Source: Gracilariopsis chorda
Taxonomy: Eukaryota > Rhodophyta > Florideophyceae > Gracilariales > Gracilariaceae
Length of the DNA: 64,000 nucleotides
Assembly (NCBI GenBank): GCA_003194525.1
Contig: NBIV01000279.1
Span: 1-64,000 of the forward strand
Direction of reading: 5' to 3'
Shown: in pieces, positions 985 through 62,191 of the stretch
Numbering within the stretch: position 1 is the stretch's first letter
How the letters are laid out: each line of letters opens with the position of its first letter
Program-made: the position numbers and the translations under genes
Notes under the pieces: model-generated
The model's input: only the letters and a program-made list of their open reading frames with translations
Told to the model about the DNA's origin: nothing
Database searches by the model: none

Positions 985-3900
985 CGAGGCTGTTGGCGCC
1001 CGAGGCGTCCTCGCCTCGCTCCCCGGTGAAAGTCCTCTCGAGGAAAGACACCGCTGACGCGGACTCTGCGCACCTCGGTGTGTTGCGTCGCCCGTGGATA
1101 CGGAGTAAAAATCCCCGGATTCCCGGTAGAGTCTTGGTCTGGCCAAGCGCAATTATAAGGTCTATGCCGACCTTGGCCTTGACCCCAGTTTATGGTGAGG
1201 TTTCTCACCGTCCTGGATACAGGTGCAGGCCCCAACTTTGTCGTGGAATCATTGTTACCCCCGCTTGTGCGGTCGCGTATCCGCTCTGACGCGGTCCCCG
1301 ACATTTCGGATGCGAACAACAATCCGTTACAAACGATGGGCACAGTGGACCTCGTCGTGAGACTTGGTACATCTGTGGTGAAGTTGGACTTCATCGTTTG
1401 CCGTTCACTGGCAGCACCAGTCATACTGGGATGTGATTACTGCGACAGATTTGTCGACGCAATCAGGCCCCGCCTCAGGCGTGTAGAACTTGAAAACGGA
1501 TCGTCGGTTCCGATTGTTCGCCGCCCGCTAAAGCGGTCCTCTCGGAAACAAGTTCCGCTCCCTGCTGCGCAGGAACCACCGCCCGCGTCCCGCGAGTCCA
1601 CCAAGCTCCGCGTCGCTGCCTCGGTTTCTATACCGGCTGAGTCCCAAGTCTGGGTACAGGTAAATTCCCGTCAACACGGTCTTCGGGTTATACAACCCCT
1701 CGCCTCGTTGTACGAGAAATCCCAGCTGGCGCTGGCTAATGGAATTGTCTCCATTTCCCGGATGTTCCTTTCCGGATATTGGTTGCCAACCTTGGCAAAC
1801 ACCCCCAGTATCTGGTCAAACACCAAGTAATTGGGAGTGTAACCCCCCATCCTATGGGAATGCTGCCAACGAAGATGACAGCCGCCGATTTACTCGGAGT
1901 TACCACCTCTTCTGAGGAGTTCACCCCGCCGTCCGAAGACGTCAAGTCTAAGGAGGGGGAGGAAACCGCTACTTCAGCGTCGAACATACCGAGTAACTCG
2001 GAATTGCGAACCACACCTGTTCCACAGGACAATGCTCCATCGAGCAATGACCGGATTGATCCGGAAAAAGCACTTGAAGCGCTGGACTTCAGCCACGTGC
2101 CAGAGTCGCACCGCAACAAACTCCGTACTATGTTACGGGAATTCACCACAATGTGGGATGGCTCGCTTGGCGAGATTGATGCAACGGAACACCGGATCGA
2201 TTTAATCCCCGGTGCGCGACCGGTTGCACAACCCCCTTACAGGGCAGGTCCGAAAGCTCGGGAAGAGGAACAGTCCCAGGTGGACAAGATGCTCCGCGCA
2301 GGTGTGATTGAGCCCGCTCAATCGCCCTGGGCATCCCCAGTTGTACTGGCTTTAAAGGCTGACGGAACCTGGAGGTTCTGTGTCGACTACCGCCGGCTCA
2401 ATGCCGTGACTGTTAGGGACACGTACCCCATCCCTCGTATGGACGAGTGCATTGACTCCCTTGGAGACGCCACCGTGTTCACGGCCCTTGATGCCAATTG
2501 GGGATATTGGCAAGTACCTGTCAGACAGGAGGATCGCGACAAAACCGCATTCACCTGCCATGCAGGAACGTACCGCTTCAAGCGGATGCCATTTGGGTTA
2601 ACCAACGCCCCCGCCACCTTTCAGCGTGCAGTAGATATTCTACTCAACCGCTTTAAGTGGCGGAGTTGTCTGGTCTACCTTGATGATATTATCATCTTCT
2701 CCAACTCGTTGGACGACCATCTCACTCACGTCCGAGACGTGCTGACCGTACTCCGCGATGCGGGAATTACCCTCAAGTTGAGGAAATGCGAGTTTTTCAC
2801 AGATACTGTGAAGTATCTGGGTCACATTATCCGTCCTGGACGGTTAGCGATCGAGAAAGCTCGAGTCAAATCCCTCGTTGAGGCGAAAGAACCCCGTACT
2901 CAAACGGAACTGCGCTCCTTTCTGGGGCTGGTCAACGTCTATCGACGGTTTATCCCGAACTTTTCGGATACTGCAGCGCCCCTGAACGCGTTGTTGCGAA
3001 AGGGGAACCCCCCAAAACTGGGAACATTTACGCCCGAGCAATCGGAAGCCTTTAACTCCTTGAAGGAGGCTGTCACATCAGCACCAATCCTACATCTCCC
3101 AAAACTTGGATTGCCATACTCCGTAGATACGGACTCGAGCGACTACCAAGTCGGGTGTGCTCTTTTTCAAACCACCCCCGAGGGGAACGACACCCAATTG
3201 GTTATTGGTCGCGCTCGCTCAATGTCCATGAGCGGAACTACTCCGTATCGGAGAAAGAGTGCCTCGCCGTCGTATGGGCGATGACCACTCTGCGCCCCTA
3301 CCTTATGGAGTCCATTTCACCGTGTACACGGATCATTCCTCACTGAGGTGGTTAATGAATATCTCCGACCCGTCGGGACGCCTCATGCGCTGGAGACTCC
3401 GCCTCGCGGAATATGACTTCCAAGTCATTTATAAAAAGGGCGCGCAGAACACCCAAGCCGACGCTCTGTCGCGTTTACCCACAAGTGGGGAGGCACTCCA
3501 ACGGAGGATGATGAAGTCCCATGTTTCATGGCAATGGACCCGGATGATCCGGAATGTGCCGTCGAGGCTGAGCCAGAAAACTGGGACGAAGATGCTGACT
3601 TCGACTACCTACTCGCATCGCGAGATGATTCTGAGAAACCCATACCGGGAAATTATGTACCGGTTTGAGACCGAGGAAATGATCCGAGAACAATTCGGGG
3701 ACCCCTTCTGTACAAGGATACGTGCACGCCTCAACGGCGGAGAGAACCTCCCCTTCGGGGTGAACGACATTGGTTACCTCGTGAGGACCGTCGAGGCTAC
3801 CCCACAAGTTGTGGTACCGCACACGCTACAGAAGCGGATATTGCACCTTTCGCATTACCCGAAACTCGGGGGACACTCCGGTGGGAGGAAGCTTTATCTA

Positions 3901-6551
3901 ACCCTTCGCAGGGATTTCTACTGGCCCGCCATGGCGGTTGATTGCTACGCTACGGTGCGGTTTTGCACGCAATGCGCGAAGAACCGGGTCAAACTCCGGA
4001 AGCACTCCAAACGGATGAAGCTATTCCCCGCCAGGGCGCCGCTCGAGTTTGTCGCAATTGACATTCTCGGACCATTGCTCTCTACCAGGAGAGGCAACAA
4101 GTTCCTACTCGTTATTACGGACAGGTTCTCGAAATTAGTTCGGACAGTCCCTCTAAAGAGGATTACCGCCTACACGGTCGCTCACGCCTTTGTGCGGCAT
4201 TGGGTGTTTGCCTACGGACCTCCTTTGGAGCTACTTTCCGACAACGGGAAACAGTTCGCATCGCGATTTTTTCCAGGACGTCTGTCGGATACTGGACGTG
4301 AAGAATCTCTTCACGACCACGTATCATCCCCAGTCTAATGGGCAGGTCGAGCGTTTCAAACCGGACAATGCTCGCAGCTCTCCGTGCTTACACGGCTGAC
4401 CACCCCAAGACTTGGGATATCTACACGGATGCCGTGACCTTTGCGTACAATACGCAGGTACACCGGACTACCGGAATATCCCCTTTCGAGTTGGTCCTTT
4501 CACGGACACCCCCGCCAATGGCGTTGGAATCCCAACCTACGTTGGACGCGTTCCCTTCTGTGAAGGATTACCGCCAGAAGTGGAAAGCATGGCTGACCAA
4601 GCTGGTACCCGCAGCGCGGAAGGCGATGGACCACGCCCAAGCCGCCTACAAACGGAATTTCGATGCTCGCTTGCGAGGAGGCAAACCGGAACAGATCAAC
4701 TCCGGGGACTTCGTATTCGTCCGCAAGGAGTACTACAACCCTGAAAGGGAGAAGCACCATAAGCTCTCGCTTGTGGCGGATGGTCCTTTCAAGGTTATCT
4801 CCGTCACGACGGACACGGTGGTTGTGGAAATGGGTGACGCGCATGAGCGGTTATCTCGCGATCGCATCGTGCTAGCTCCGCCACCCTCGACTGAGGCTGC
4901 ACCAGCTACGCTGGACCCTACGCTGGAATATGGCTCTGCATCCGATACATCGGTGGTGAGACGGCCTACCGTGCTACCACACCCCTCCCGGGGACTCTCA
5001 GACCTACCGACCCTGTCGGACTCACCGGCTCAGCCGGGTAATTCGGGCCTCTCTGTGCCCGCCCCTATGGCGCGAATCTACACCCGCCAGGCGGGGCATG
5101 TTATCCCTTATCCCGCCGCTCCGTCTCAGGAGGGGGAGGAGAACACTCGTTTTCGAGGAATGAGATCGCCGTCGCAACGGGAAACACGCCGTACCATACG
5201 GACAACTGACCGCGGAGCACGGAGTATCTCACGCGACACTAATCCCCCGTCCTCGGGCAGCGCTGTGCAACAGGAACCAGACGCGCAGGTCCCGCAAAGG
5301 CGGCAAATACACCGTGTTACACGGGAAGCTGAAACGCAGCTACCGCACACCCCTGTCAGGGAAGGATCCCCGATACGGGAGTACGGCGACAATCGCCCTC
5401 AATCCCCTGAGCAGGGAGATGCCTCAAAGCCGCCATTGGCGGAAGTCCCCGCGGAAGCGGTTCAATCAGGTCGCTCAGACCCGCGCCCCGCGGAGAAGAG
5501 GCGCCCAGATACACCAGCGCCGCTGGGAAATACCCACACCCCTATCGGGGAAAAGGGTAGCCAAGCCGCATCCGAAGCTTCAGGCCCTGGCGCGCAGCGC
5601 TCGGAAACGCTCCTCGTCGCAGACGGAATCGAAGCCCCCGTTCCGGGGAATAATTTGCGCCAACTACCGCAACGCTGCGGCGAAGAACCGAGGAACTCGG
5701 GAAAAACGCGCGCCATCGCACGCTCGAAACCGGTCGTACCGGACGCTGCTCCTCCTCATGGAGACGGTGCACCGCACTTAGCGGCCAGGCCCCTGAAAAG
5801 GGTGTCATCGGCACCTGCCCGGCACCCCCCAAAGGGGAATTTTGACCAAAATACCGGTGTACCGGAGTTAGCCTTAGGCAACCCCCCAGTAGCCGGGGAC
5901 ACCACGGCGCCGCCGGAACGTACGGTGCAGAGCGCTCGTGCGCCTGGCAGGGAGGCGGTTTGCCATCCAACCACCGTGCCGCACGGGACCCCCCAGGGGA
6001 TCGTGGAAACGCCGATTCCGCAGGAGCGGTCATCTTCCCGCAAACTCGCGGTTCGTGAGTTCAACCGCGAATGCGGAGTTCAAGTCCCCCGCCGGTTGGC
6101 GGTTCGCCTGGCCTACCGTGAAGACGGGAACAACGACACCCCAATGGGGAATGACTTGCCGGGGAAAACCGTGACACCACATACCCTCTTGAGGGATATT
6201 TTCCCGCATGAGCAGCGGCCACTAGGACAGCGCACGGCAACGTCGGAGTTATCGCCGAACACCCTGCTAAGGGACATTATACCGCACCGCGGACAACCCT
6301 CGCAAGGGAGTACAACCACCACCCGGCACGGCCGGCAGGTCTACGAACGAGAGTTCGTAGTAGACCGACTTGTCGGACACACCTGGGACCAGGATGGTAT
6401 TCTACAATACCGCGTCCGCTGGTACGGGTACGACCCCAGTGGGGATACGTGGGAGCCAATTGAACACCTCCCACGGTCGCAGATCGTGCGATACCACCGT
6501 CAAACGGGAACTGCAGCCCCAGCCACGCTGGTTAATGCCCAAGTTGGGTAA
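985..6551 (+). pseudogene. pol of element A: PR-RT-RNH-INT-long tail-chromodomain
   Basis: Domains in order: aspartic protease with LDTGA near 1,210; reverse transcriptase about 2,130-2,900 with FCVDYRRLNAVT and the catalytic YLDD at 2,676-2,687; RNase H about 3,060-3,480 ([18 protein letters not shown]); integrase about 3,690-4,870 with an HHCC zinc region, the DDE core (AIDILGPL, LLSDNGKQF, NGQVER) and a GPF-type module (VADGPFKVISV). A tail of roughly 480 residues rich in Pro, Arg, Ser and Glu follows. The protein ends in a chromodomain at about 6,325-6,500 (FVVDRLVG, LQYRVRWYGYDPSGDTWEP). Such chromodomains usually steer integration to histone-marked chromatin. The copy carries several breaks and is a fossil. 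Confidence 0.92.
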
Positions 6552-6744
6552 CGTTGCCGCGCGAGCGGAGGGCAATGAGAAAGGATAGCAAGGGAAAGTC
6601 CGTCTAAGACGGGGAATGCTAATTGGAAATCACCGTTCTAAACGGGAAAGTTTATTCAGGGGAGCAGCTAGCTCCTCACGATACTACACTACACTAACTG
6701 GCATAGCCAAGGAAAGAATACCAGGAAAACTGGAAAAAAGGAGC

Positions 6745-8531
6745 TCACTCTTCGCCGTTGCCCGGGGCGTAACCCCCAGCAAGGCGGTAGGCCAACGCGT
6801 CCGCCATGGTGGTGACATCCCCCGATACCTCGGCAGCGCTAAGACCGGCACCCCGGAGAAAACGCGCGATGATCTCGTTTTCATTCGCCGTTACCCCGCT
6901 GGGGATAGAAGGTCCGGCACTCGCCGCCGAAGGGTCAGCAGCCGGCTCGGCCGGAGGTACCCCTCCTGGGGAAGCTTCCGCGCTAGCGCCGGTGTCCTCT
7001 ACGTCCATCTCCCCGGGCTCTTCCGGATCGTTATCGACCATTGGGTCATCCCCGCCGTATGCGCGGTAGTAATCGTCAGAATCGACGTACCCCACCGGGT
7101 GGTCTTCCGGCACATGCCGGGGCGCATCGCGAAGTTCGCGCGCCTCCTCGGAGGAAATTTCCCGGAACTCCCAGGGGTCGAAGTAGATAAAATCACCCGC
7201 AAGGGCGGTGTTTCTACCCAGTCCCGGGCCACCGGTGTTACCGCTGCCGCCATCCAGACGACCGCTTTGCTCCAGCGGGACCTCACTCCAGCTAACGCTG
7301 TCGATGTACCCAAGTAATTGGAGGACCTCTTCATTGTTGGCCTGGCCCCAAGGGGGATGCGAAGATCCAGGTTTCGGATCGCTGCCCGCACACGCGGTTG
7401 AAGGAACCAGAGACGATACTGGTCGTACGCCTCGTTGAGGATATAAGCCGCACTGCGAGCCGCCCACTCCGTAGCCACTACGGACCACAACCCCGACCGG
7501 GGATCCTGCATGAGCAGCGAACCGAGGTACGTAAGTACCGGCGGGAGTTCTATGTAGCACCCCCGGCAGGCTTCATGGAAGCGCCACCACTCGGGAAGTG
7601 CTACATACCGACCTAGTCGGTGAGGCGGCGCAATCCGCTCTATCTCCACGTTCTGATACGGGATAAAGTACCCGAATCGGGATCGCCAACGCCGCTCGTA
7701 GCGGATGAAGTTTTGGAGAAAGTTAGACCGGTATTGCCGGGGAAGGTACCTGAACTCCGCCCGAATAATCGGTCGCTCCCAGCAAAGGGCCTCTTGCCGC
7801 GCTGCGGGGAAATTCCTCCAAGCGAGGGTCTCGAGGCGGAACAGGTTCTCGCCGTACCCAATCTCCCCGCGAGTGCGGAAGTAGCTAATGTCGAAGCCAA
7901 ACTCTGGTGGGACCGGTACATCGAACGGAGCCCGGCTCTGCCGTTGGTACGCCATGCGCGTCAGCGCGGTCTGCGCCGCAGCGACGGTCTCGCCCGAGTT
8001 TCTTCGGAGGTGGTGACGCGGAATCGCAATCCGGTGACGCCAATCCCACGATGTGGTGACTGCTCTGGGCAGATCCCCCGGAAGGGTGTCTGAACCATCC
8101 GCATAAGCGGTGACCAACCCCTCATTGAGGACAGCGACCGGGTGAAACCACGGGGCAAGGCGCAGGCGCGACGCGTGATTCCGATTCATCGGGTTGAGCC
8201 CCACCAGGGTGTTGTAGGTTGGCCAGTTGGACACCGGAGTGGTCCCGGAGGACACCACCGAAGGTGGTAGTGCGAAGGGATGGTCGGCTCCAGCAGCCGT
8301 ATTTCCCGGTTGTACCGGATTTCGATCGCCCTGAGGCAGGGGAACTGACCGGAAACCGGTGGTGTATCGCCCGAGAAGTCTCGGAGGTTGGCTGTGGTTG
8401 TTGATGTTGTTGTCGTCGTTCATTTCTCCCTTGTCGAGGGTGGCTGTTGTTGTCGTTTGTGTACTTGAGGACTCTGGTGCAGAGGAATTTACCGGAGAAC
8501 CGGAGACAAAGCACTTGCTTTTATCACCCAT
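6745..8531 (-). pseudogene. antisense accessory frame (aORF) of element A, unknown function
   Basis: A frame of nearly 600 codons on the minus strand lies between the end of pol and the 3' LTR, converging on pol with about 190 bp between their stops. Its start is 56 bp inside the 3' LTR. A homologue sits at the same place in element B and, diverged, in element C. Shared motifs with C include SQPP near residue 48, PLPQ near 64, APWFHP near 126, then LCW-RP, EF-Y and, near the C-terminus, APR-VPED with a following DDY. The C-terminus is acidic and Pro/Ala-rich. I see no signal peptide, no membrane segment and no family I recognise, so it does not look like an envelope. This copy is broken at least once. 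Confidence 0.8.
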
Positions 8532-8575: not shown

Positions 8576-8587
8576 AGGGGGGGGATA
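8576..8587 (+). other. polypurine tract of element A
   Basis: The run AGGGGGGGGATA directly abuts the start of the 3' LTR. In Ty3/gypsy elements such a tract primes second-strand DNA synthesis. The equivalent tract in element B is at 47,671-47,682 on the minus strand. Confidence 0.85.
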
Positions 8588-9394
8588 TGAAGTGCAACGC
8601 CCTCAGGGAGGGATTCTTGGTACTTGATTGTTTTCCCGATATTATCGGTTGTGTAGTGTGTATATGAACTACGCCCCACTACGGTGGGTATGGACACGTG
8701 GGACACGGTTTTGGGTCAATTGGCGGTTGGCCACAGTAGTGGATGTTGCCACGGAATGTGGAGTATTTTAGTTAATTTTATTTATTATTTTCACACCCAT
8801 TTCTGGGAAGCTAGTACTTAGTGCGACGGCGCACTGCCGTTGCACCAGTAAACCTTCCCCAACAAGGGACCCCAACCTGGGGAATTGGCTCTGAGCTTTA
8901 CCGCCTCCGCGTGTTCTCAACTCCTCCTTGGAGGGAAGCACCGTAGTGTACGGAAGTTCACCCCCCTTGCACATCTAAAGGAGACCCATCATTGGGAGTA
9001 CTAATTGTTCCAATCATATTGGTGTTTCGCCCTGTATAGGGAGTCCCGTCCACCGGCATCGCCGTATCTACTCGTCGCTCTCGCGACCCACTCGTCCTTC
9101 CTCTTTCCCCTTTTTAGGGTAGCACCTCCCGCTATCCGCGGCCCTCGTGTGCGCATCCGCTCACACACCCCCACTTACGTGGAAACATACCTCTACTGAG
9201 GATCACGCCCCGCTCACGCGGATACCGATTCTTCGCCTTCACCTCCCTGCGCGAGTCGCGACAGGTGTCCCTGGTCTTACAAACCGGCTTCGCCGTGACA
9301 CCTCTGGGAGGGCTCTACCCAACTGGGTTCACCTCGTGAGAGGAAGATCCCGGACGTCTTTCGGTGTTTTTCCCCTTTGGGGCATTGCACCACA
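8588..9394 (+). repeat. 3' LTR of element A (family-1 LTR)
   Basis: The LTR is 807 bp, begins TGAAGTGCAACG and ends TTGCACCACA. It matches the 5' LTR of element B (50,759-51,583) and the minus-strand LTR at 46,849-47,670. It is the most different of the three family-1 LTRs, mainly in its middle third. Confidence 0.92.
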
Positions 9395-9508: not shown

Positions 9509-10690
9509 TTAAATCATGTAAATGTCCACTGAAAAAGACTGAAAGTCGATACGTTGCAGCAACTGCCGTTCTAGCACCTGTTTGTTCTCGTTCAATCGAC
9601 CGACCTGCATCGTTAACCAATTGACGGGCACGACCACACAGAGCTTTGCATTGACCACAGCGGAATGCAGCACGTTTTGAATCACAGTAACTGGAACATA
9701 AATCTTCAAATACAAGTTATGACGTGGTATTACAGTAGGTGCATATTGATATAGAAACTCGGGAACAAAATAATTGTTGATAGAAGACTCTGATTTCTTC
9801 CCACCTTCAGATTGTACTGTCATAGCTGATGGAAGAGTGAAGCGCTCACCGGGAAACAGTTCCAGCGCTGCCGCATTATGTTCGTCGACCAACTGGCTTA
9901 TGGATACGATGAGCATTTTGCTGAGATCCACATCCTCTTCGCCTCTTGTTTTGAGCCACTTCCACAGGAATTGATAAGCGGTTTGCATGTCTCCGGTGAA
10001 TCTGAGTGGTATTGCAGCGTTTTTGTAAATGATTTTGTATGCATTAGAACTTAGCAGCGATGCAAATGCTGGATCATCAACTTAGCGTACTTGGTCTATG
10101 ACTTACAGCACTTGAACCAAACACAATTTCAATAGATCACTCTTCCATGGCAGCCCTTTGGGAATTTTTTTTGTACACTCGTCTCACATTTCCACTCGGC
10201 TCAGCCACCATGGATACCTGCGGCACAACTGCAAGCAGCTGGGAGTAGTCTCTGGGTATAACGATGGTCAAGCCCCCAAACGGAGGTGGTATTTCCATTT
10301 CACTGCAGCTAATATCTTTGAGCAACGCATATATGAGTTAAAAGCGCATTCGTGAGAGCATGGACGCCTTATCCAAGACGAGGAGTTGTACCTTGCGTAG
10401 CAGTTCTGTACTTTGAGATCGGGGACCATATATTGATAAAGTAGCTGCAGTGCTGCTTGTACTGTCCTTATCTGCTACATCCAGTCAAAGCAGGTTATGT
10501 AAAGTCGGTCAACTTCGTACAAAGATGCTGCAATGCCTATTATAGCAGTAAGTTCAGCGAGCATTCCTTCCGACTCAGCTTTATCGCTAAGGAGCTTGAG
10601 AACGTATTCTTTTTCGGTTCCTGCGGATCCTTGCACAAAGAAAATCTTTCCAGGAGTGCTTGTTGTAGTGCAATGCCCGGGCGACGGGTA
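9509..10690 (-). pseudogene. Helitron helicase (Pif1-like), broken fragment
   Basis: Minus-strand translation matches the helicase half of the Helitron at 13.6-19.7 kb. The Walker A region reads GSAGTEKEY at about 10,604-10,630, where a working Pif1 helicase has GTGKT, so it is dead. The next block reads GGLTIVIPRDYSQLLAVVPQ near 10,200-10,290, the Pif1/Helitron motif usually written GG-VV-GGD-RQ-LPVVP. The C-terminal block, lines such as QFLWKWLKTRGEEDVDLSKM and VDEHNAAALELFPGERF, occupies 9,509-9,988. The three blocks lie in different frames with stops between them. The Rep half is absent. It is a second, truncated Helitron copy in the opposite orientation to the larger one. Confidence 0.8.
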
Positions 10691-23895: not shown

Positions 23896-24831
23896 TGTAG
23901 TTCAAAACCCGATGGTTGGGTATCACACTCAAGTTGTCCGGGGCCTTGCTCCCTGTGGGGTGAAAACCACTGACAGAACCCTCTGTATACCTGTAATACG
24001 GGCGTAACTCCGTAGGCATTTCGGATTGGCCACAGAGGTGGATCAAGAAAGGTGAACCGGAGCCAGAAAGACGGTAAAATCAGAGACTGGTGTGCCACGC
24101 GATGTGGCGGTTTGTAATACACCGGGTGAAGGGTGCCTTCCAAGAACGGAGAAAAACGACCCAGCAGGTCATGTGGAAAGCGGAAACAGACCCGGTGGAG
24201 GGTGCACATGCACGGGATGTACTGAACAAATTACCCAATACAGAGGCAATACCATTACCATACGGTAAATAAATGTCACAAGACAATTATAACACAGTGT
24301 ATCTGTATGCTTACCGAGCGGTTGAATTGAGCGAACCGAATGCGGTGACTCTCCGCAAGTAGTATTACACGGTGCAGCAATGTCACAATCCAGAGACGGA
24401 TTCCTCAGGACAAGCTGAAAAGTTATGAATGACCAAAGTCTCAGGTTGACTTTACTTAGTGCTAGCGACGACGAGGTCGCGTTCACCTAATTAGGTACAC
24501 TACCGAATATAATATAATAATTAGCTACATTAGTGCACACCTCTTCAGGCCTACACATGTGGCCAGGCCAGTGTCAGGCACCCTGAGCGGTCGACCCAAA
24601 GGAAACAGAACAGTACAGCATGGTGCTGTTACACACGCGCACACGCGTCCACTCATCCTGCAATCCATTCTAGATTCCTACCTTCCTAAAAAAAATTTCA
24701 AACACAAAACCATCCAATTGACATCACCTCGAGCAAGTCCAGGTCGTATACGGTACAGCCGTCACGGTAACCGCGTTGCACTGCTATGAGTAGAATAATC
24801 GCGATTTCAACGTCTTTCACCTTGTCCCACA
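23896..24831 (-). repeat. 3' LTR of element C (family-3 LTR)
   Basis: This LTR is 936 bp. On the minus strand it begins TGTGGGACAAGG and ends TTTTGAACTACA. It aligns end to end with 34,660-35,592 and with the solo LTR at 11,685-12,840. Confidence 0.94.
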
Positions 24832-24842: not shown

Positions 24843-24963
24843 TTAGCCGAGGGTTCCCGCGTTATTTGAGGGGAACTAGCAGGTGGCAAAGTTCTTAAGT
24901 AACAGATTCACGGTGAATTCCTCCGACATTGCGGTTCCTCGCTAATAATGCGATACATGCCAA

Positions 24964-26724
24964 ATGTCCAAAAAGTCAAACTTGAACTCGACCAATACTT
25001 TGGAATGCCAGCTACTAACTCCTCCGAGGATGCCAACGAACGTTCATTCCAACCCTCTCCCGGGTGCTTCCAGCTCTGCTGGTCATTCTCAACCTCCACC
25101 GGGGAGCGTACACCAGATGACTGGTTTTCTTTCGGCTCCGTTGCCACAAAACCGGACGGGCCCCACATTGGATCCCTTGGACATGGCCTGGAATTCAAAA
25201 GAACCAACGCCGGTGACAACCAATGCTTCTGGTTGGGTGTCAAAAGATACACTCCTCGTACGCAATCCCCTGTGGGATAATTATTTCTTCTCGAGAGCAC
25301 CGTGGTTTCACCCCAAAGCGGTCCAAAATCACGCTTTGATCTCTTCGTACCTTACCGATCATCTCTTAGCCGGTGGTCTACCCATTGAAGTAGTCAAATC
25401 CCACGATTGGATACGTCACATAGCTATCGACCCGCATCTGATGAGGATCCATGACCACAATGGTGAAGCATTAGACAAGGTCCGTGAAGAGATGACTAAG
25501 CATGCGTACAAAGGCCTATGCCGTGCCCGGAATGCGAACCCGGTACCGTACCGGTACAGATTCGACGTATCGAGATACCGAACTAACGGTAAGATCTCAT
25601 ACAGAGACCGACTGGCTGCACTCGAACTTGCTGTGTTTAACGATAGTATCGTTCGTATCGAACCCGATGGGCTCTGCTGGGCACGGCCCTTCCTTCGTGG
25701 GGAGTTCAAATACATACGGCGAGCCGTTACACTCGGCTGGTTTGTGAGTTATATTCAGTTTGAGCGGAAAGCGCGATCCCGTTACGTATAGTTGATCCCA
25801 TACGTGAACATCGAAACAGAGTGATACCAGCCACAGGCTTTGGATGGGCGGTTTGTGCCCTTACCAACTTGGTGATCGCGTGTTGAAGTACCCAAAGGGT
25901 GTTACGCGGAACTCCCTCCGTATCTTACGTACTTGGCGTCCCGCATTCTCATCAATCTGAGGTCCGTATACTGGTCATTAATAATCGTCGAGTGGGCTGT
26001 CGGGGTTGTGGTGTACACCCTTTGGGACGCATATGACCATTGTAGGGATTAGTGCCTACCTCCGTACCCTCAAAAGGTAACGCGCACACTGAATCTCCAC
26101 ACTGTTCTTGGTTCCGAAGAGAACGTGGGTGAACTTTATTACATCCTAGATGTAGTAGATCCGGTTTTCTGGAACACCGTGTCGTACGGTAATCGCGAGA
26201 TGGGTAACCGTTCTACCTACAACCGGTCTCCGGGTCTTCGGCAGCCAGGGGCTGGGAATTTCATCCATTACAACCAGTGAGAAGGCTGTGAGACGTCGCG
26301 TGCTCAAGCTTTATTGTTAAGGAAAGCTCCACGCGTGGTTCCTGAGGATCAACCCACTGGTTTCGTCTTCAATGATGATTATCATGCTCCAGTTGCCCTC
26401 AAAGAGCCCATGTTGGATGATGAAGCGAACGCGCTCAGTTGCGCCGATCCCATGGCGGGTGTGAACATTTCGGGTGCAATTGTTGCCGACGCATCTGCTA
26501 CAGGAGCTATGGCACTATCTGTTTGGAATCTGGGAAGTAAGCAGAGTGCTCCACCGCCAATTGCGGTATCTGCAGAAATCGCGGCATTGCAAGCTATACT
26601 GTTGAATCTGAGTATCCCAGTTCCACCTCGTATGAACTACGTAAGCCAGCTGCTAGCGCTCGCAGCGCAGCACACGCCAGGAGTGTCAAACCAAGGTGGT
26701 GCCGGTTCCTCATCGGGAGAATAA
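24964..26724 (+). pseudogene. antisense accessory frame (aORF) of element C, unknown function
   Basis: This frame runs opposite to C's gag-pol and begins 132 bp inside its 3' LTR, the same place and direction as the antisense frames of A and B. The first 275 residues (24,964-25,791) align with A's protein: SQPP...TGF-S-PLPQ near residue 42, RAPWFHPKAV at 111, LP-EVV-S-DW--HIAI, GE, RA---PVP, FDVS-YRT-G-I-Y, LCWARPF-RGEFKY and ERKARSR. The end of the protein (26,314-26,724) keeps APRVVPEDQPTGF followed by DDYH, then a Pro/Ala-rich tail. Almost no DNA similarity remains, so protein-level constraint kept these residues. The copy is broken in several places. Confidence 0.82.
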
Positions 26725-27099: not shown

Positions 27100-30000
27100 A
27101 GGTGTATGGGAGAGCCAACGGGGTCCTACGGTGATAAGATATAAACGTGGACCTTGAGATATGCTCTATAGGTTACCATGTATCCTCTTGGGGTGGATAT
27201 CCATACCAAAGGATGAGATACTGCAGTACTCCATCGCGAGTTTCAGGACGTACGATACGTTTCAAGACGAACTCATGTGAATACACGTCTGTGTTCTCCA
27301 TCACCATGAAGCGTACCGCGGGCCGGGGCCCCTTTTTCAAGCACATTAGGGCTCGGGGCGCCACCAGGGACGATACTAACCCTCTTGGGGAGCGGTGAAA
27401 GCTTCAAAACTTTGTCGTATATCATCGCGGCGACCATAGGACAGCTTACGTCATAGATGTCCAAACGGCGGTCTGGGAAGTGCCTTTGAAAGAATTCACT
27501 CTAATGAGTACAAAGAGCTTAAGAAGTTCGTCATGAGCGAATACCTGCAGAACGGTGGCCTCAGAGATTGGAGAAGTTATCCTTAACAATGCAGATGTAC
27601 CGTGGCTACGAAGACAATCACACACTGCACTCACTGTGCCAGTGTGGCGGTTCACCGAACACGGTGCTTTTGCCATCATCTGGTTGGTTTGGGTCATGCC
27701 CACGAGAGCCACAAGATTACTGTGCGTCACAGAATGGTGTTCCGTTTTCGAACGGTCGCCACGGAGCGTGTGCACACGCGTCAGCGTTCTCTCGCAATGC
27801 AATCCTGTTCTCCGTATTTGACAACAGCAAGGCTGTCACGTTGTAGGCCATTGCATCCAATTCTACTAATGACGGTATGAATTGTGCCCAAAATGTCTCA
27901 GAATTGACCACAGTAATTTTACGGAGCTTCGTTCTTCTCTACACCACCAGTTCAACCGACTTAGGTTGCAATCACCTTAAGAAATCCCATATGGGTCTGC
28001 AGACACCGTCTTTTCGATGGGTTTCGCAACTTTACAAGTGCGATTGTCCGTCTTCGTTTACGATGAGGGATCCACCGCAGCATTGGTGTTACCAGTAGTG
28101 GCTTCCCGTAATGGGGTAGTCTGATCTTTACTGACGTTACTCTCTTTGAGTTGAGACGTACCGTCTCTTATACGTCGGAGGTTCGGTTCCTTAATAGAAG
28201 TTACTCCCTCCGGAGCAAACGCAGCGTTGCGACGAGATCCAGCTAGCGGATTTCTCAGTGACGTCAATACATCGACAGCAATTTCACCAGCACCCTCCCC
28301 CTACTTCTCTGGAGCCGGGGGAGTGGAAAAAACCCCAGGTGGGGGTGTTACTCGAGTGATTACCTGCGGATTATTCCGTTTGTTACCACAAGACTCAACG
28401 GGTTGAGAATCCGATGGCAAAGATATATCGGCTAAACCGAGATCCCGTGTGGGAAGAATTGCCGAGCGCGAGAACGTAGAATCCGTACGCTGTGTTTCAT
28501 ACGATTGGGATACCACTGAAAGCGTTGCAGGAGCAATAAACACTTCCATCTTACGATTAGGAGCGTGGGTGACGCCATAGCGTGATATCCGTTCGTGTTG
28601 ATTGTTAATATCCAACAAAACTGTGTTCGCATCAGTAGATACCACTGCATAGGGTCCATCCCCAATTAGGGAAAGCTTTTGATGTCGTTCCTTCTCAGAA
28701 ATATAGTACTGTTTTCGTACGAATACAAAGTCGTTTGCAGCAAACTTTGGAAGAGGTGTACGAACTTTGCTATCAAAATTACGCTTGTACGCGTCTTGAG
28801 CTTTCGTCATAGCTTTCCAAGCCATCGGTGCTATCTTGCTTAGCCATCTTTTTCACGAGTTACGGTATAAACCAGGCGAAGGGTACTTCGAGAGAGTCGG
28901 TTGTGCCCCGATAGCCACGGGTGGTGAGATACAGGACAAGACCAGCTCAAAAGGAGAAATTGAAGTAACCAGATGAACCTGGGTATGGTAGGCATACGTG
29001 ATAGCATTGGTGTATAATTCGCATTCCTTGGCATGATCCACCACATAGGATCTTAATGCATTAAGCATTGTAAGATTATATCGTTCTACTTGCCCATTGC
29101 TTTGGGTGTTATAGGTCGTTGTGAACAAGTTCTTGATCGTCAAGATTCGACAGACATCCTGGAAAAACTTAGAAGTGAACTGGCCTCCATTATCTGAGAG
29201 CAGATTCAAGTGTGACCCGTATACGAAGACCCAGTGAGTTACAAAAGCTTGCACCACTGCACTAGCGTTAATCCGTTTCAACGGAACTGTTCGTATCAAT
29301 TTAGAAAACCGATAGGTTATGAGAAGTAAGGACTTGTGTCCTTGAGGTGTTCGAATAAGCTCTCCGAGTATATCGATGGCGACAAATTCCAGTAGTGCTG
29401 GAGTTGGGAATAAAGTTAAATTCTTAAAGTACTTACGTAGCGTCTGTTTGTTTTTAGCACACTCCGTACAAGAACGGCGAACTGCGTAGCAGTCAAATAC
29501 CACAGCGGGGCGGTATAAGTCCCTTCTGAGGGTTAAATATAACGTTCGACCTCCAGGGTGAGCTCCTAATTTCAAATAATGGGATATATGTAAGACTCGC
29601 TGTTGAATTGAGTGCGGTATAACAATTCGTGGTGTACATTCGACCAATCTACCAAGATAGCCCTCATCATTCTCCACGAACGGTATTCGATCCCCTTCAT
29701 TGGGGCGTGCTCTAATCCGCGTGCAGAACAAATCCTAGTGTTGTTCACGGATCATTGCCTCCGGAGCAATGGATGCAAATGAACTAGCCGGTGGTTCCAA
29801 GCTTTCGATAGACAGTATTTCGTCACGTATATCATCCGAAAAGATTTCAGCACTTACATGTAGGTCTCCAACCATGACGCATGGTATATTCACATCCGCT
29901 GTCGGTTCTGCTTTCGCATTACTTTCCATTCAGGATAACGCAGTGGCCCGAGCATTAGAGGATCGTTTCTTGTATAGGATATCGAAGTCGAACTCCGATA

Positions 30001-47670: not shown

Positions 47671-47873
47671 TATCCCCCCTAAGACGGGAAAACGACCGCG
47701 GACGCGGAGGATTCCCAGTTGAAAATGGGTGATAAAAGCGCGTGCGCTGTCTCCGGTTCTCCTGTAAATCCCTCTGCACCACAGTCACCACTCCCTGCTA
47801 CTGCAGCTGTTATTTCTTCTCTTCGCCTCCGCTCTTCCTCGTCACCGAGCGCTCTCCGACAAACAACAACCAC
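47671..47873 (+). pseudogene. polypurine tract and first part of element B's antisense frame
   Basis: After the polypurine tract a plus-strand start at 47,725 reads MGDKSACAVSGSPVN, the beginning of the antisense protein (MGDKSKCFVSGSPVN in A). The sequence stops at 47,873, where the family-2 LTR begins. The last bases ACCAC resemble ACCAT, which (on the minus strand) borders the other family-2 LTR at 61,320. Confidence 0.85.
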
Positions 47874-53879: not shown

Positions 53880-56800
53880 TTGGGAGAGGCGTCCTCAGAC
53901 AAGAGGCTGTTGGCGCCCGAGGCGTCCTCGCCTCGCTCCCCGGTGAAAGTCCTCTCGAGTAAAGACAACGCTGACGCGGACTCTGCGCACTTCGGTGTGT
54001 TGCGTCGCCCGTGGATACGGAGTAAAAAGCCCCGGATTCCCGGTAGAGTCTTGGTCTTGGCCAAGCGCAATTACAAGGTCTATGCCGACCTTGGCCTTGA
54101 TCCCCAGTTTATGGTGAGGTTTCTCACCGTCCTGGATACAGGTGCAATCCCCAACTTTGTTGTGGAATCATTGTTACCCCCGCTTGTGCGGTCTCGTATC
54201 CGCTCTGACGCGGTCCCCGACATTTCGGATGCGAACAACAATCCGTTACAAACGGTGGGCACAGTGGACCTCGTCGTGAGACTTGGTACCTCTGTGGTGA
54301 AGTTGGACTTCATCGTTTGCCGTTCATTGGCAGCACCAGTCATACTGGGATGTGATTATTGCGACAGATTTGTCGACGCAATCAGGCCCCGCCTCAGGCG
54401 TGTAGAACTTGACGACGGATCGTCGGTTCCGATTGTTCGCCGCCCGCTAAAGCGGTCCTCTCGGAAACAAGCTCTGCTCCCTGCTGCGCAGGAACCACCG
54501 CCCACGTCCCGCGAGTCCACCAAGCTCCGCGTCGCTGCCTCGGTTTCTATACCGGCTGAGTACCAAGTCTGGGTGCAGGTAAATTCCCGTCAACACGTTC
54601 TTCGGGTTATACATCCCCTCGCCTCGTTGTACGAGAAATCCCAGCTGGCGCTGGCTAATGGAATTGTCTCCATTTCCCCGGATGTTCCTTTCCGGATATT
54701 GGTTGCCAACCTTGGCAAACACCCCCAGTATCTGGTGAAACACCAAGTAATTGGGAGTGTAACTCCCCATCCTATGGGAATGCTGCCAACGAAGATGACA
54801 GCCGCCGATGTGCTCGGAGTTACCACCTCTTCTGAGGAGTTCGCCCGGCCGTCCGAAGACGTCAAGTCTAAGGACGGGGAGGAAACCGCTACTTCAGCGT
54901 CGAACACACCAAGTAACTCGGAATTGCGAACCACACCTGTTCCACAGGACAATGCTCCATCGAGCAACGACCGGATTGATCCGGAAAAGGCACTTGAAGC
55001 GCTGGACTTCAGCCACGTGCCAGAGTCGCACCGCGACAAACTCCGTACCATGTTACGGGAATTCACCACAATGTGGGATGGCTCGCTTGGCGAGATTAAC
55101 GCAACGGAACACAGGATCGATTTAATGCCCGGTGTGCGACCGGTTGCACAACCCCCTTACAGGGCAGGTCCGAAAGCTCGGGAAGAGGAGCAGTCCCAAG
55201 TGGCCAAGATGCTCCGCGCAGGTGTGATTGAGCCCGATCAATCACCCTGGGCATCCCCAGTTGTACTGGCTTTGAAGGCCGACGGAACCTGGAGGTTCTG
55301 TGTCGACTAGCGCCGGCTCAATGCCGTGACTATTAGGGACACGTATCCTATCCCTCGTATGGACGAGTGTATTGACTCCCTCGGAGACGCCACCGTTTTC
55401 ACGGCTCTCGATGCACCGCATTCACCTGCCACGCAGGAACGTACCGCTTCAAGCGGATGCCATTTGGGTTAACCAACGCCCCCGCCACCTTTCAGCGTGC
55501 AGTAGATATTCTACTCAACCGTTTTAAGTGGCGGAGTTGTCTGGTCTACCTTGATGATATTATCATCTTCTCCAACTCGTTAGACGACCATCTCACTCAC
55601 GTCCGAGGCGTGCTGACCGTACTCCGCAATGCGGGAATTACCCTCCAGTTGAGGAAATGCGAGTTCTTCACAGATACTGTAAAGTATCTGGGTCACATTA
55701 TCCGTCCTGGACGGTTAGCGATCGAGAAAGCTCGAGTCAAATCCCTCGTTGAGGCGAAAGAGCCCCGTAATCAAATGGAACTGCGCTCCTTTTTGGGGCT
55801 GTTCAACGTCTATCGACGGTTTATCCCGAACTTTTCGGATACTGCCGCGCCCCTGAACGCGTTGTTGTGAAAGGGGAACCCCCCAACACTGGGAAAATTT
55901 ACGCCCGAGAAATCAGAAGCCTTTAACTCCTTGAAGGAGTCTGTCACATCAGCACCAATCCTACATCTCCCAAAACTTGGGTTGCCATACTCCGTAGATA
56001 CGGACTCGAGCGACTACCAAGTCGGGTGTGCTCTTTTTCAAAACACCCCCGAGGGGTAACGACACCCAATTGGTTATTGGTCGCGCTCGCTCAATTTTCA
56101 TGAGTGGAACTACTCCGTATCAGAGAAAGAGTGGGTCGCCGTCGCATGGGCGATGACCACTCTGCGCCCCTACCTTATGGGAGTTCACTTCACCGTGTAC
56201 ACGGATCATTCCTCATTGAGGTGGTTAATGAAAATCTCCGACCCGTCGGGACGCTTCATGCGCTGGACACTCCGCCTCGCGGAATATGACTTTCAAGTCA
56301 TTTATAAAAAGGGCGCGCAGAACACCCAAGCCGACGCCCTGTCGCGTTTACCCACAAGTGGAGAAGCACTCCCAACGGAGGATGATGAAGTCCCATGTTT
56401 CATTGCCATAAACCCGGATGATCCGGAATGTGCCATCGAGGCTGGGCCAGAAAACTGGGACGAGGATGCTGACTTTAACGAACTACTCGCATCGCGAGAT
56501 GAATCTGAGAACCCGTTATCGGGAAACTTTGTACCGGTATCACCGGAAGAAATGATCCGAGAACAATTCGGCGACCCATTCTGTACGAGGGTTCGTGCCC
56601 GTATCAACGGTGGTGAAGATATCTCTTTCGGGGTAAACGACAAAGGCTACCTCGTAAGGAAGGTCGAAGCCCGCCCACAGATTTTGGTACCTCATTCCCT
56701 CCAGTCGCGGGTGTTACATCTATCACACTACGCCCCCATTGGAGGTCACCCAGGTGGGAGGAAACTCTACCTAACTCTGCGAAGAGATTTCTATTGGCCC

Positions 56801-59431
56801 ACCATGGTGGTGGATTGCTACGCAACCGTGCGGTTTTGTAGCAAATGCGCGAAGAATCGCGTGAAACTCCGCAAAAATGCAAAGAAGATGAAACTATTCC
56901 CCGCAAGGGCGCCGCTCGAGTTTACCGCGATCGATATTCTCGGACCATTACTCACCACGAAACGTGGAAACAAGTTTCTACTTGTCATTACCGACCGCTT
57001 TTCTAAGCTGGTACGGACTGTCGCTCTTCGGAGGATAACCGCTCTCACGGTGGCCCAGGCTCTGGTGACGCACTGGATTTTTGTCTACGGTCCCCCTGTG
57101 GAGGTGCTCTCCGATAACGGGAAACAGTTCGTGAGCAAGTTCTTCCAGGATGTTTGTCGCATCCTGGATGTCAAGAACTTGTTCACGACTACCTACCACC
57201 CCCAGTGTAATGGGCAACTTGAACGGTTTAACCGGACGTTACTCGCGGCGTTACGTTCCTACGTCGCTGACCACCCAACGAATTGGGATCTCTACGCTGA
57301 TGCGGTAACCTACGCGTACAATACGCAGGTACACCGGACTACCGGAGTTTCGCCATTCGAGTTGGTTCTATCTAGAACACCCCCGTTTTTGGCGCTGGAA
57401 ACCCAAGCTACCTTGGACAATTTCCCATCTGTGGGTATCTACCGGCAGCAATGGAAGCAATGGCTTTCCACGCTGGTCCCCGCTGCGCGGAAGTCTATGG
57501 CACGGGCCCAAGCCGCTTACAAGCGTGATTTTGATGCTCGCTTGCGAGGGAAACCGTCCCCGATTCGGGCGAATAACTACGTTTTCATCAGGAAGGAGTA
57601 CTACAAACCGGAACGGGAGAAGCGCCATAAACTCTCGCCTGTGGCGGATGGACCATTCAAGGTCATCTCTGTGAACACCGACACTGTCGTGGTAGAGATG
57701 GGCGACACGTACGAACGGATTTCCCGTGATCGTGTTGTCCTTGCCCCTCCTCCCTCGTCAGAGGTAGTCCTGGATCCAGGCAACCCCGTTTCTACGAACT
57801 CTGCAACACCGGAACCATCCGGGAGTACTAGGCCTACGGTACTACCACACCCCAGCCGGGGACTCTCAGACCTACCGAACCTGTCGGACTCACCGGCTCA
57901 GCCGGGTAATTCGGGGCTCTCAGCGCCCGCCTCTACCACGCCCGCCCCCTTGGCGCGAATTTACACCCGCCAGGCGGGGAACGTTCTCCCTTATCCCGCC
58001 GCTCAGTCTAAGGAGGGGGAGGAGAACACTCTTTTTCGAGGAACGATATCGCCGTCGCAACGGGAAACACGGAACATACGGAACACTGACCCTGAAGCAC
58101 GGAGTATGTCACACGACACTAATCCCCCGTTCTCGGGCAGTGCTGCGCAACAACAACCAGACGCGCAGGCGCCGCAAAAGCGGCAATTATACCGTACTAC
58201 ACGGGAATTTGAAGCGCAACTACCGCACACCCTGGTCAGGGAAGGATCCCCAATATGGGAGTATGGTGACGATCGCCCCCAATCCCCTGAGCATAGCGAT
58301 GCATCGAAGCTGCCATTTGCGGAAGCCCCCGCAGAAGCGGTCCAATTAGGTCCAGCAGACCCGCGTCCCGTGGAGAAAAGGCGCCCAGATACGCCAGCGC
58401 CGCTGGGAAATACCCACACCCCTCTTAGGGGAAAAGGCGGCCGAGCCGCAGTCGAAGCTTCAGGCCCTGGCGCGCAAGCGCCGGAAACGCCTCCCGTCGT
58501 CGACGGAATCGAAGCCACCACTCCGGGGTATAATTTGCGCCAACTTCCGCAACGCTGCGGCGAAGAACCGAGGAACTCGGGAAAAATGCGCGCCATCGCA
58601 CGCTCGAAACCGGTCGTACCGGACGCTGCCCCTCCTCATGGAGACAGTGCACTGCGCTTAGCGGCAAGGCCCCTGAAAAGGGTGTCATCGGCAACTGCCC
58701 GGCACCCCCCAAAGGGGAATTTCAACCACAATGCCGGTGTACCGGAGTTAGCCTTAGGCCACCCCCGAGTAGCCGGGGACACCACGGCACAGCCGGAACG
58801 TATGGCAGAGAACGCTCGTGACCCCCCAGGGGAGGCGGAACGCTTACCAATCACCGTGTTCAACGGGACCCCACAGGGGATGTCGCAAACGCCGTTCCCC
58901 CATACGTGACAAAGACCCTGCGAGCTCGCGGCTTGCGAAGAAAACCGCACTCGCGGAGTTCAAGTCCCCGGCCGACTGGCAGTTTGCCTGGCCTACCGTG
59001 ATGACGGGAACAACGACGCCCCTCTGGGGAATAACTTGGCGGTGAAGACCATGATGCCAAACACCCTCTTGAGGGATATCCTCCCGCACGAGCAGCGGCC
59101 GCTACCACAGCGCACGGCAACGCTGGAGGTATCGCCGAAAACCCTGCTAAGTGACATTACACTGCACCGCGGGCAACCCTCACAAGGGAATAAAACGACC
59201 ACCCGGCACGGCCGGCAAGTCTACGAACGAAAGTTCGTAGTAGACCGACTTGTCGGACAAACCTGGGACCAGGATGGTATTCTACAATACGGCGTCCACT
59301 GGTACGGGTATGACCCCAGTGGGGATACGTGGGAGCCAATCGAACACCTCCCACGGTCGCAGGTCGTGCGATACCACCGTCAAACGGGAACTGCAGCCCC
59401 AGCTACGCTGGTTAACGCCCAAGTCGGGTAA
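53880..59431 (+). pseudogene. pol of element B: PR-RT-RNH-INT-long tail-chromodomain
   Basis: Domains: protease about 54.11-54.38 kb (LTVLDTGA, VILGCDYCDRFVDA); RT about 55.13-55.87 kb (WRFCVD, MPFGLTNAPATFQRAVDILL, LVYLDDIIIFS); RNase H about 56.0-56.36 kb ([19 protein letters not shown]); integrase about 56.69-57.75 kb with zinc region, AIDILGPL, VLSDNGKQF, NGQLERFN and VADGPFKVISV; a Pro/Arg/Glu-rich tail of about 480 residues; and a chromodomain at about 59.21-59.38 kb (FVVDRLVGQTWDQ, YGYDPSGDTWEP). The tail of A and B varies mostly by substitution. Fossil with several breaks. Confidence 0.92.
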
Positions 59432-59620: not shown

Positions 59621-61320
59621 TCACTCACCCCCATCGTATGGGGCGTAACCACCAGCGAGGCGGTAGGCCAACGCGGCCGCCATAGTGGTGACATCCCCCG
59701 ATACCTCGGCAGCGCTCAGACTGGCACCCCAGAGAAAACGTGCGATGATCCCGTTTTCATTTGCCGTCACCCCGCTGGGGATAGAAGGTCCGGTACTTGC
59801 CGCCGAAGGGTCAGCAGCCGGCTCGGCCGGAGATACCCCCTCTGGGAAAGCGTCCGCGCTAGCGCCGGTTTCCTCTACGTCCATCTCCCCGGGTTCTTCC
59901 GGTTCTTTATCGACCATTGGGTCATCCCCGCCATATGCGCGTTAGTAGTCGTCAGAATCGACGTACCCCACCGGGTGGTCTTCTAGCACATGCCGGGGCG
60001 CATCGCAAAGCTCGCACGCCTCCTCGGAGGAAATTTCCCGGAACTCCCAGGGGTCGAAGTAGATAAAATCCCCTGCAAGGGCGGTGTTTCTACCCAGTCC
60101 CGGACCACCGGTGTTACCGCTGCCGCCATCCAGACGACCGCTTTGCTCCAGCCGGACCTCACTCCAGCTAACGCTGTCGATGTACCCAAGTACTTGGAGG
60201 ACCTCTTCATTGTTGGCCTGGCCCCCAAGGGGGGTGCGAAGGTCCAAATTGCAGATCGCTGCACACGCGGTGGAAGGAACCAGAGACGTAACTGGTCGTA
60301 CGCCTCGTTGAGGATATAATCCGCAGCGCTGGCCGCCCAATCCGTAACCACTACGAACCACAACCCCGACCAGGGATCCTGCATGAGCAGCGAACCGAGG
60401 TACGTAAGTACCGGCGGGAGTTCTATGTAGCACCCCCGGCAGGCCTCATGGAAGCGCCACCACTCGGGGAGTGCTACATACCGACCTAGTCGGTGAGGCG
60501 GCGCAATCCGCTCTATCTCCACGTTCTGATACGGGATGAAATACCCGATCCGGAATCGCCAACGCCGCTCATAGCGGATGAAGTTCTGGAGGAAGGTTGA
60601 CCGGTATTGCCGGGAAAGATAGCGGAACTCCCCCCGAATAATCGGTCGCTCCCAACAAAGGGCCTCTTGCCGCGCTGCGGGGAAATTCCTCCAAGCGGGG
60701 GTCTCGAGGCGGGACAGGTTTTCGCCGTACCCAATCTCCCCGCGAGTGCGGAAGTGGCTAATGTGGAAGCCAAACTCCGGTGGGACCGGTACATCGAATG
60801 GAGCCCGGCTCTACCGTTGGTATGCCATGCGCGTCAACGTGGTCTGCACCGCAGCGACGGTCTCGCCCGATTTCCTTCGGAGGTGGTGACGTGGAATTGC
60901 AATCCGGTGAAGCCAATCCCACGATGTGGTGACTGCTCTGGGCAGATCCCCCGGAAGGGTGTCTGAGCCATCGGCATAAGCGGTGACCAATCCCTCATTG
61001 AGGACAGCGACCGGGTGAAACCACGGGGCAAGGCGCAGGCGCGACGCGTGATTCCGATTCATCGGGTTGAGCCCCACCAGGGTGTTGTAGGTTGGCCAGT
61101 TGAACGCCGGAGCGGTTCTGGAGGATCCCACCGAAAGTGGTAGTGCGAAGGGATCGTCAGCTGCAGCAGCCACATTCCCCGGTTGTACCGGATGTTGATC
61201 GCCCTGAGGCAGGGGAACTGACCGGAAGCCGGTGGTGTATTGCCCGAAAGACCTCGGAGGCTGGTTGCTGTTGTTAATGTTGTTGTCGTTGTTCATTTCT
61301 CCCTCTTCGAGGGTGATGGT
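59621..61320 (-). pseudogene. antisense accessory frame (aORF) of element B, main part
   Basis: It is nearly identical to the antisense frame of A: NWPTYNTLVGLNPMNRNHAS, APWFHPVAV, IAIPRHHLR, IELPPVLTYLGSLLMQDP and NEAYDQ. It ends with DVTTMAAALAYRLAGGYAP. It converges on pol with 189 bp between the two stops. Its 5' end runs into the family-2 LTR at 61,321. Function unknown; no membrane segment seen. Broken. Confidence 0.82.
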
Positions 61321-62191
61321 TGTAGTGCAATGGCCCGTCGAGGGTATGCCGCAATCGGTCTTCATAAGGATTTGATCCGCTCCCGGCTGCCACAACCGTG
61401 GTTATGAATGGTATTAGCTTCACTAGCCCCATTTGGGGGTGTCCCTAGGAAGGGTAGTAATTGTGGCCACGTGTGCCGATATTGGCCCGATGACGGGTGC
61501 GCCGTGGCAAGCTTGCCACGGTTGCACATCTGTACTACAGTAGCCGGCCTTGCCGGGTGGCTAGATATTTCTAGATATTTATTTTAATATGTTGAAGTGC
61601 CGTATATAAGTGGCGGCACTGCCGCCACTGTACGGAGAAGTAAACCTCAAGGAGGAACTGGGCTCTGTTCATCTAGCCGCTTGCGCACGGTCACTAACCC
61701 CTCCCGGGGAATACCGCCGCAACACCGGGTTGAGCAACCTGCCTCCGTCTTTGAGGAGTCCTGAACCGTCGTTACGGCTATTTCTTTATTGTTTCTTTTG
61801 CCTATTATAGGTTTCTTCCGTCATACGGCTTCTGTTTCTCTGCCCTGTTATACAGGTTGGCCCCCATCGTATAGGGATCTGATTTCCCACTCTCGCGAGT
61901 CTGCGCTCCGCAAGTGCGGCTTGTTTGTTGATCATTTGTCCCACAACCGTTGGGCTGGGTACTGTGCTACCACCTCTCGTGGATTCTCCGACGGAGTCGG
62001 CTTGCTTGGCCGGTTCTTACCCTCTGACTGCACGCCCAGTACGGGGTCGCCCGGATTTACACCCGGCTCGTGTCGACCCTATCAGAGGGCTCTCTCGCTG
62101 TGCCGCCTCTCATTGAGAGCAAGCTTGAACACCTTGGTGGTGCTTCCGCGACGCGGCTCGTGTCTGTGCCACGTTCGCAGTTTGCACTACA
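61321..62191 (+). repeat. 5' LTR of element F (family-2 LTR), inversion boundary
   Basis: This LTR is 871 bp, from TGTAGTGCAATGG to TTTGCACTACA, the same length and apparently the same sequence as the minus copy at 47,874-48,744. It contains palindromes such as GTGGCAAGCTTGCCAC. Confidence 0.95.
61603..61628 (+). promoter_or_regulatory. LTR core promoter: TATA box followed by a 9-bp hairpin
   Basis: TATATAAG at 61,603-61,610 is a good TATA box. Immediately after it, GTGGCGGCACTGCCGCCAC (61,610-61,628) is a perfect hairpin with nine-base arms and a one-base centre, at the place where transcription should start. It would therefore lie at or near the 5' end of the element RNA. The same arrangement exists in the minus copy near 48.44-48.46 kb. 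Confidence 0.65.

Follow-up and report, generated by a model that had tools for sequence, protein, structure and literature searches.

An antisense accessory gene of chromodomain Ty3/gypsy elements in the red alga Gracilariopsis chorda, with a lysine-poor predicted product

Antisense accessory open reading frames (ORFs) located between pol and the 3' long terminal repeat (LTR) are a known category in retroelements, and those of plant elements are thought to have regulatory functions, the Grande protein being nuclear (PMC7264820, PMC11963269). In plant Retand elements, an antisense ORF was reported in nearly all recently active families and a regulatory role was proposed for it (PMC11963269). 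Most known genes of this kind in LTR elements are from plants, and there is one fungal example. Among the titles and the opening parts of abstracts listed from the open-licence literature, no antisense ORF was found to be described for red-algal elements. A gene with this arrangement is analyzed here in Ty3/gypsy elements of the red alga Gracilariopsis chorda. Its conserved frame, purifying selection, tail-to-tail position, divergence in step with the chromodomain and, in family 1, lysine depletion are evident from the sequences compared. The fuller reading, to which we give about as much credence as doubt, is that it is a real protein-coding accessory gene of a chromodomain Ty3/gypsy lineage, antisense to gag-pol, with its own internal promoter and a lysine-poor product that acts in trans.

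The window, i.e., the whole 64,000-nucleotide stretch that was analyzed, holds three copies of the gene (Table 1): two in elements A and B, which represent one Ty3/gypsy family (family 1), and one in element C, which represents another. Pieced together from the three, the host element comprises reverse transcriptase, RNase H, integrase, a C-terminal chromodomain, LTRs and a polypurine tract (PPT). An initial annotation had drawn a long antisense frame between pol and the 3' LTR in each element, and such a frame proved to be real, with some changes in its limits. In A, the frame does open at 8,531 (minus strand) as proposed, but only 510 codons are open from there, the last third of the homologous protein continuing in another frame to 6,748. 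In B, which is broken by one stop and one frame change, both the frame and a detached start were recovered by protein match, the latter being confined to 21 codons. In C, which is broken by at least one stop, the match is present on the plus strand (antisense to C itself) at 24,922-26,673, the limits in the initial annotation being 24,964-26,724. The C protein is 38% identical to the intact family-1 protein of locus L009 (residues 46-502, E 4e-80). The LTR edge of A was judged from a comparison of copies comprising 35 rows, some of which are one place entered twice.

Table 1. Coordinates of the antisense gene and of neighbouring element features in the window
Feature	Position	Strand	Remark
Antisense accessory gene, element A, predicted coding part from M37 to stop	6745..8423	-	Last third frame-broken; intact family-1 copies elsewhere
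Codons 1-36 of the originally noted frame, probably 5' leader, not protein	8424..8531	-	pN/pS 1.01
TATA-like ATAAAA of antisense gene, element A	8519..8524	-	51 nt past PPT complement; similar spacing in 5 families
Polypurine tract (PPT) AGGGGGGGGA, element A	8576..8585	+	Direct reading of letters
3' LTR, element A (TG...CA, end approximate)	8588..9394	+	Homology among copies stops here
AATAAA, possible poly(A) signal	6651..6656	-	About 90 nt past antisense stop codon, element A
pol 3' part, element A, Chromo domain at residues 685-732	4302..6551	+	Convergent with antisense gene
Reverse transcriptase frame, element A	1740..3284	+	Pfam RVT_1 E 4e-37
Antisense gene, element B (family 1), broken	59624..61341	-	Protein match
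Detached first 21 codons, element B antisense frame	47725..47787	+	Protein match
RNase H, integrase and chromodomain frames, element B	56060..59431	+	Pfam
Antisense gene, element C (divergent family), broken	24922..26673	+	Open stretch ends 25,791
3' LTR, element C	23896..24831	-	Edge judged by eye; partner about 34660-35567, ungapped blocks 81-89% identical
Integrase frame, element C	28853..29734	-	Pfam Integrase_H2C2 above cut-off, rve just below

Several other features were noted in passing. At least 8 of 40 family-1 copies show the kind of frame change seen in the last third of copy A, and these copies do not group together in a midpoint-rooted tree; the change may be due to slippage that recurs, to gene conversion or to errors of sequencing. 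One arm of an 871-nt inverted repeat (47874-48744 and 61321-62191, 100% identical, 12.6 kb apart) joins the antisense gene of element B, and the repeat may represent a recent inversion, a nested insertion or an assembly artefact. A second inverted-repeat set (46849-47672 and 50757-51583; 86, 123 and 622 nt, 93-96%) perhaps consists of LTRs in opposite orientation. The sole host-like gene examined in the window is a frame with a Ribonuclease HII domain (42685-43563, minus strand; Pfam E 4e-39). Two related frames at 9509-10081 (minus strand) and 18860-19678 (plus strand) have PAFASLLSSNA-like motifs in common, and we take them to resemble helicase-type proteins of Helitrons. Elsewhere in the same genome, contig C15 has four PPT sites 6,017-6,020 nt apart at 288386-306454, with antisense-gene matches at the same spacing, as if an LTR element were arrayed there in tandem.

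The search for further copies covered a genome of 91.3 Mb. Natural uninterrupted copies, which the initial annotation had asked for, are present there: among the best 40 of 666 candidate DNA copies of family 1, 22 keep a 595-codon frame of exactly 1,788 nt with no stop before codon 596. By comparison, when an intact copy was subjected to 300 dinucleotide shuffles and the three frames of one strand were read, no open run exceeded 328 codons, with a mean of 166. The opposite-strand frames of the 22 intact copies have at least six stops each (6, 19 and 21 in the three frames of L009), and the antisense frame is thus not the shadow of a sense gene. Summed dN/dS was 0.29 among 28 open family-1 copies (28 of 32 loci, three without the search motif and one of 525 codons being left out), which were taken from the upper end of a ranking by protein score, where open frames are favoured. 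When pairs were grouped by age, the ratio was 0.47 for dS below 0.03, 0.31 for 0.03-0.06, 0.27 for 0.06-0.10 and 0.28 for 0.10-0.20; the lower values in older than in the youngest pairs are the pattern expected if selection acts during the activity of the element and ends after insertion. Along the frame, pN/pS was 1.01 in codons 1-36, 0.36 in 37-110, 0.11-0.26 in four blocks of the core (111-480), 0.32 in 481-560 and 0.47 in 561-595. The pol tail, a yardstick that is weak because it is mostly spacer, gave a dN/dS of 0.79 (15 used of the 21 found in 32 loci).

Selection has kept the antisense protein working across several element families, and the initial claim of a protein under selection holds, dN/dS not being near one. 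These data bear also on the possibility that the antisense RNA itself is functional, forming double-stranded RNA with gag-pol, while the frame is a by-product. Convergent transcription could yield such double-stranded RNA, and a role for it has been proposed for plant elements (PMC7264820). However, this explanation appears very improbable, because an RNA-only role predicts a dN/dS near 1, whereas purifying selection is observed here at the codon level and the protein core is still mostly 40-56% identical between families (closer pairs, 72% and 88%).

The gene is also more widespread than the minimum of two families first proposed. A genome search with the C protein gave at least 147 matches with identities of 36-73%, the window's own aside, and at least seven families carry the gene when C is counted. 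In all 12 loci picked from these matches (six families, family 1 included), a chromodomain is encoded on the other strand past the stop codon of the antisense gene, so that the two genes are tail-to-tail. Distances of the antisense core and of the chromodomain were correlated: over 13 loci r was 0.95, a value that none of 5000 permutations reached, and over seven family representatives it was 0.85 (10 of 5040 permutations), which fits joint inheritance of the two. The view that this is an accessory protein of the lineage is therefore supported, both by dN/dS and by the homologous antisense frames in other elements.

The family-1 protein, of about 560 residues, combines a conserved core with an acidic tail. 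Comparisons with Pfam, PDB and known folds gave no significant match, in agreement with the initial annotation, which knew of no fitting named domain. In a Pfam scan of 11 family members at E<=1, only sub-threshold DUF6220 (two members) and SH3-A_UBE2O (one member) appeared, and neither the TRP28 domain PF04195 nor a bZIP domain was detected; a genome-wide profile search with PF04195, which gave matches in none of 14 control genomes, is accorded no weight. The absence of a membrane segment, also noted initially, was borne out in the five correctly framed proteins scanned, where 19-residue hydropathy peaked at 0.88 in L009 and did not exceed 1.45 in four relatives. The antisense orientation and the lack of a transmembrane segment do not fit an env-like accessory ORF. 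No classical nuclear signal or known DNA-binding domain was found in the antisense proteins.

A search of a 5.8-billion-protein set, in which about 8,000 candidates per query (those with most words in common) were scored, revealed 13 relatives from Gracilariales, all of them unnamed or 'hypothetical'; those with a named source came from G. chorda and Gracilaria domingensis. LTR elements of plants are documented to capture genes (PMC7264820), and the element might likewise have captured a host gene. This origin seems improbable, since none of the 13 relatives has a precomputed Pfam domain or a functional name, but a capture could still be old. It is also possible, though distinctly less probable than our preferred reading, that the protein is a structural or packaging factor, such as a particle component, a chaperone of genomic RNA or a partner of integrase, and that it does not serve regulation or counter-defence. 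A structural or packaging role would be consistent with the parallel divergence of the protein and the chromodomain end of pol, and with the conserved Arg-rich core motifs ERxxRSRxG and PYQNxE. On the other hand, no profile similarity to the presumed gag of the element was detected (hhalign probability 0.1%, with a single gag sequence), and an antisense mRNA with its own promoter would better suit a product required at a low level or with separate timing.

A candidate promoter was identified in the interior of the element, close to the 3' LTR. A TATA-like motif lies 39-52 nt past the PPT complement in 11 of the 12 loci with a readable PPT, representing five families (the PPT could not be read by pattern in L082, L083 and B); decayed copy C is without the motif. 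In family 1, the motif is GATAAAA, a weak TATA box. Genome-wide, the pattern TCCCCCTCCT-N35-60-ATAAATA had 100 sites, compared with none at a spacing of 75-100 and none when reversed, although these sites are not independent because most of the 40-odd that were inspected belong to one family. An antisense-gene match follows within 900 nt of 78 sites, and the other 22 have none among the matches listed; some of these 22 are near contig ends, and others may have lost the gene. At locus L081, a stop codon inside the motif interrupts the frame of the gene, which suggests that conservation concerns the DNA motif rather than a peptide, but this locus may be damaged. The fixed spacing suggests that the antisense gene has its own promoter at this motif. 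Downstream, AATAAA or ATTAAA occurs 53-165 nt past the stop codon in A and in 8 of 11 other loci.

With regard to the translation start, M37 is present in all 28 copies, and variable sites in codons 1-36 number 14, 16 and 14 by codon position. Because these codons evolve neutrally, the protein probably starts at M37 (about 8,423) and not at 8,531 as in the initial annotation. If transcription began 25-35 nt past the TATA-like motif, ATG1 would be outside the mRNA and the next Met would serve as the translation start. A Met is found at the corresponding position, followed by a similar NP-rich stretch, in four other families (L078/L079, L080, L082 and C), but not in L081 and L087. L087/L088 are an exception, in which no in-frame Met exists between the TATA-like site and codon 133, and their proteins must start elsewhere. 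Alternatively, the antisense mRNA might start inside the 3' LTR as in HTLV-1, the motif being incidental and translation perhaps beginning at ATG1 or from a spliced leader. The lack of a usable Met just downstream of the motif in L087/L088 favours this arrangement, as does the distance of only 56 nt between ATG1 of A and the LTR edge. Nevertheless, codons 1-36 are neutral and hold the sole Lys codons common to the copies, and the spacing of the motif is similar in five families although the intervening DNA differs, so an LTR start is considered rather unlikely, and the internal promoter with translation from M37 is preferred.

The predicted protein is also notable for its lysine content. Counted from M37, the 559 residues of the intact family-1 protein include 53 Arg but not a single Lys, where its base composition would predict 11.9; in 20000 position-wise shuffles, so low a count never occurred. 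Eight Lys codons were found after M37 across the 28 copies, each in a single copy; before M37, they are present at codon 4 in 27 and at codon 34 in 25 of the 28. Among single-step changes, new lysines were about twice as frequent as expected (8 versus 3.7). Other families have 4-9 Lys versus 8.5-14.3 expected (L078 not counted), deficits that are individually weak (P 0.016-0.097), and K/(K+R) is 0.00-0.22 in the 13 relatives, several of which are partial. No depletion is seen in the presumed gag and pol frames of these elements, whose Lys counts are close to expectation or exceed it; the integrase-chromodomain frame of A comes lowest (21 versus 22.2). A long stretch significantly devoid of lysine, which is the definition of a lysine desert, is thus found in family 1 and more weakly elsewhere. 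Lysine deserts have been reported to prevent adventitious ubiquitylation (PMC10169902, PMC10665810). The proteins described in those reports likewise have long conserved stretches without or poor in lysine, but they belong to eukaryotic ubiquitin-proteasome and bacterial systems, whereas the present one is a retroelement product.

A model that would accommodate these observations can be proposed. After integration, host RNA polymerase II would use the TATA-like box about 50 nt inside from the 3' LTR to produce an antisense mRNA, which would be translated from the second Met and terminate at a poly(A) signal located between pol and the antisense gene. Its protein product would act in trans on the life cycle of the element that encodes it, the most likely role being that of a nuclear regulator or of a counter-defence factor, and its lack of lysine may shield it from ubiquitin-dependent degradation or permit it to act beside a ubiquitin ligase unmodified. 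The integrated DNA would thereby give rise to an accessory protein that is separately timed and protected from turnover. A more specific version, which we consider quite unlikely, is that the lysine-free protein works at the host ubiquitin system itself, e.g., as an adaptor that steers a ubiquitin ligase against a silencing or restriction factor while escaping self-modification, under its dedicated internal promoter; it would then resemble retroviral accessory proteins, with an independent origin. Concrete and cheap experiments are within reach, given the many intact copies, the defined start, the motif at its fixed position and the lysine poverty.

The VANDAL transposons of Arabidopsis are of a different kind from the LTR elements considered here. 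Their VANC anti-silencing proteins provide a possible functional parallel only, as transposon proteins that counter silencing (PMC10398659, PMC5735166). By arrangement, the algal gene has the features of an aORF-3R, being antisense to gag-pol between pol and the 3' LTR with a frame conserved across copies and families. HBZ of HTLV-1 has a bZIP domain. It is likewise encoded by an antisense gene at the 3' end of a retroelement (PMC7264820, PMC11963269), but the antisense promoter of HTLV is described in the 3' LTR, whereas the algal elements favour a motif inside the element, and no bZIP match was given by Pfam. Outside plants, Boty of Botrytis cinerea also has an antisense ORF between pol and the 3' LTR (PMC7264820), the likeness noted being one of arrangement. 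In maize, gene23 of Grande, as presented in PMC7264820, is an antisense accessory gene expressed from its own upstream promoter, of which the candidate promoter would be the algal counterpart; nuclear localisation has been shown for the Grande protein, while the algal protein is known from sequence, and no Pfam domain common to the two was found. The antisense ORF of plant Retand elements with TRP28 (PF04195) also lies between pol and the 3' LTR (PMC11963269); however, Retand is a non-chromovirus, whereas the algal elements carry a chromodomain, gave no PF04195 match and live in another host group. As far as sequence can tell, the algal protein resembles the antisense accessory ORFs of plants in where it lies, in its orientation and in its conservation, but is not TRP28 by Pfam, nor is its element of the Retand type. 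In a chromodomain lineage, probably a red-algal one, a protein without detectable kinship occupies the same place and orientation. This suggests that genes of this type originated repeatedly, and a common need for a separately timed gene beside gag-pol is proposed as the reason. The protein family and its lysine poverty look new, whereas the arrangement is one known from plant (Retand, Grande) and fungal elements.
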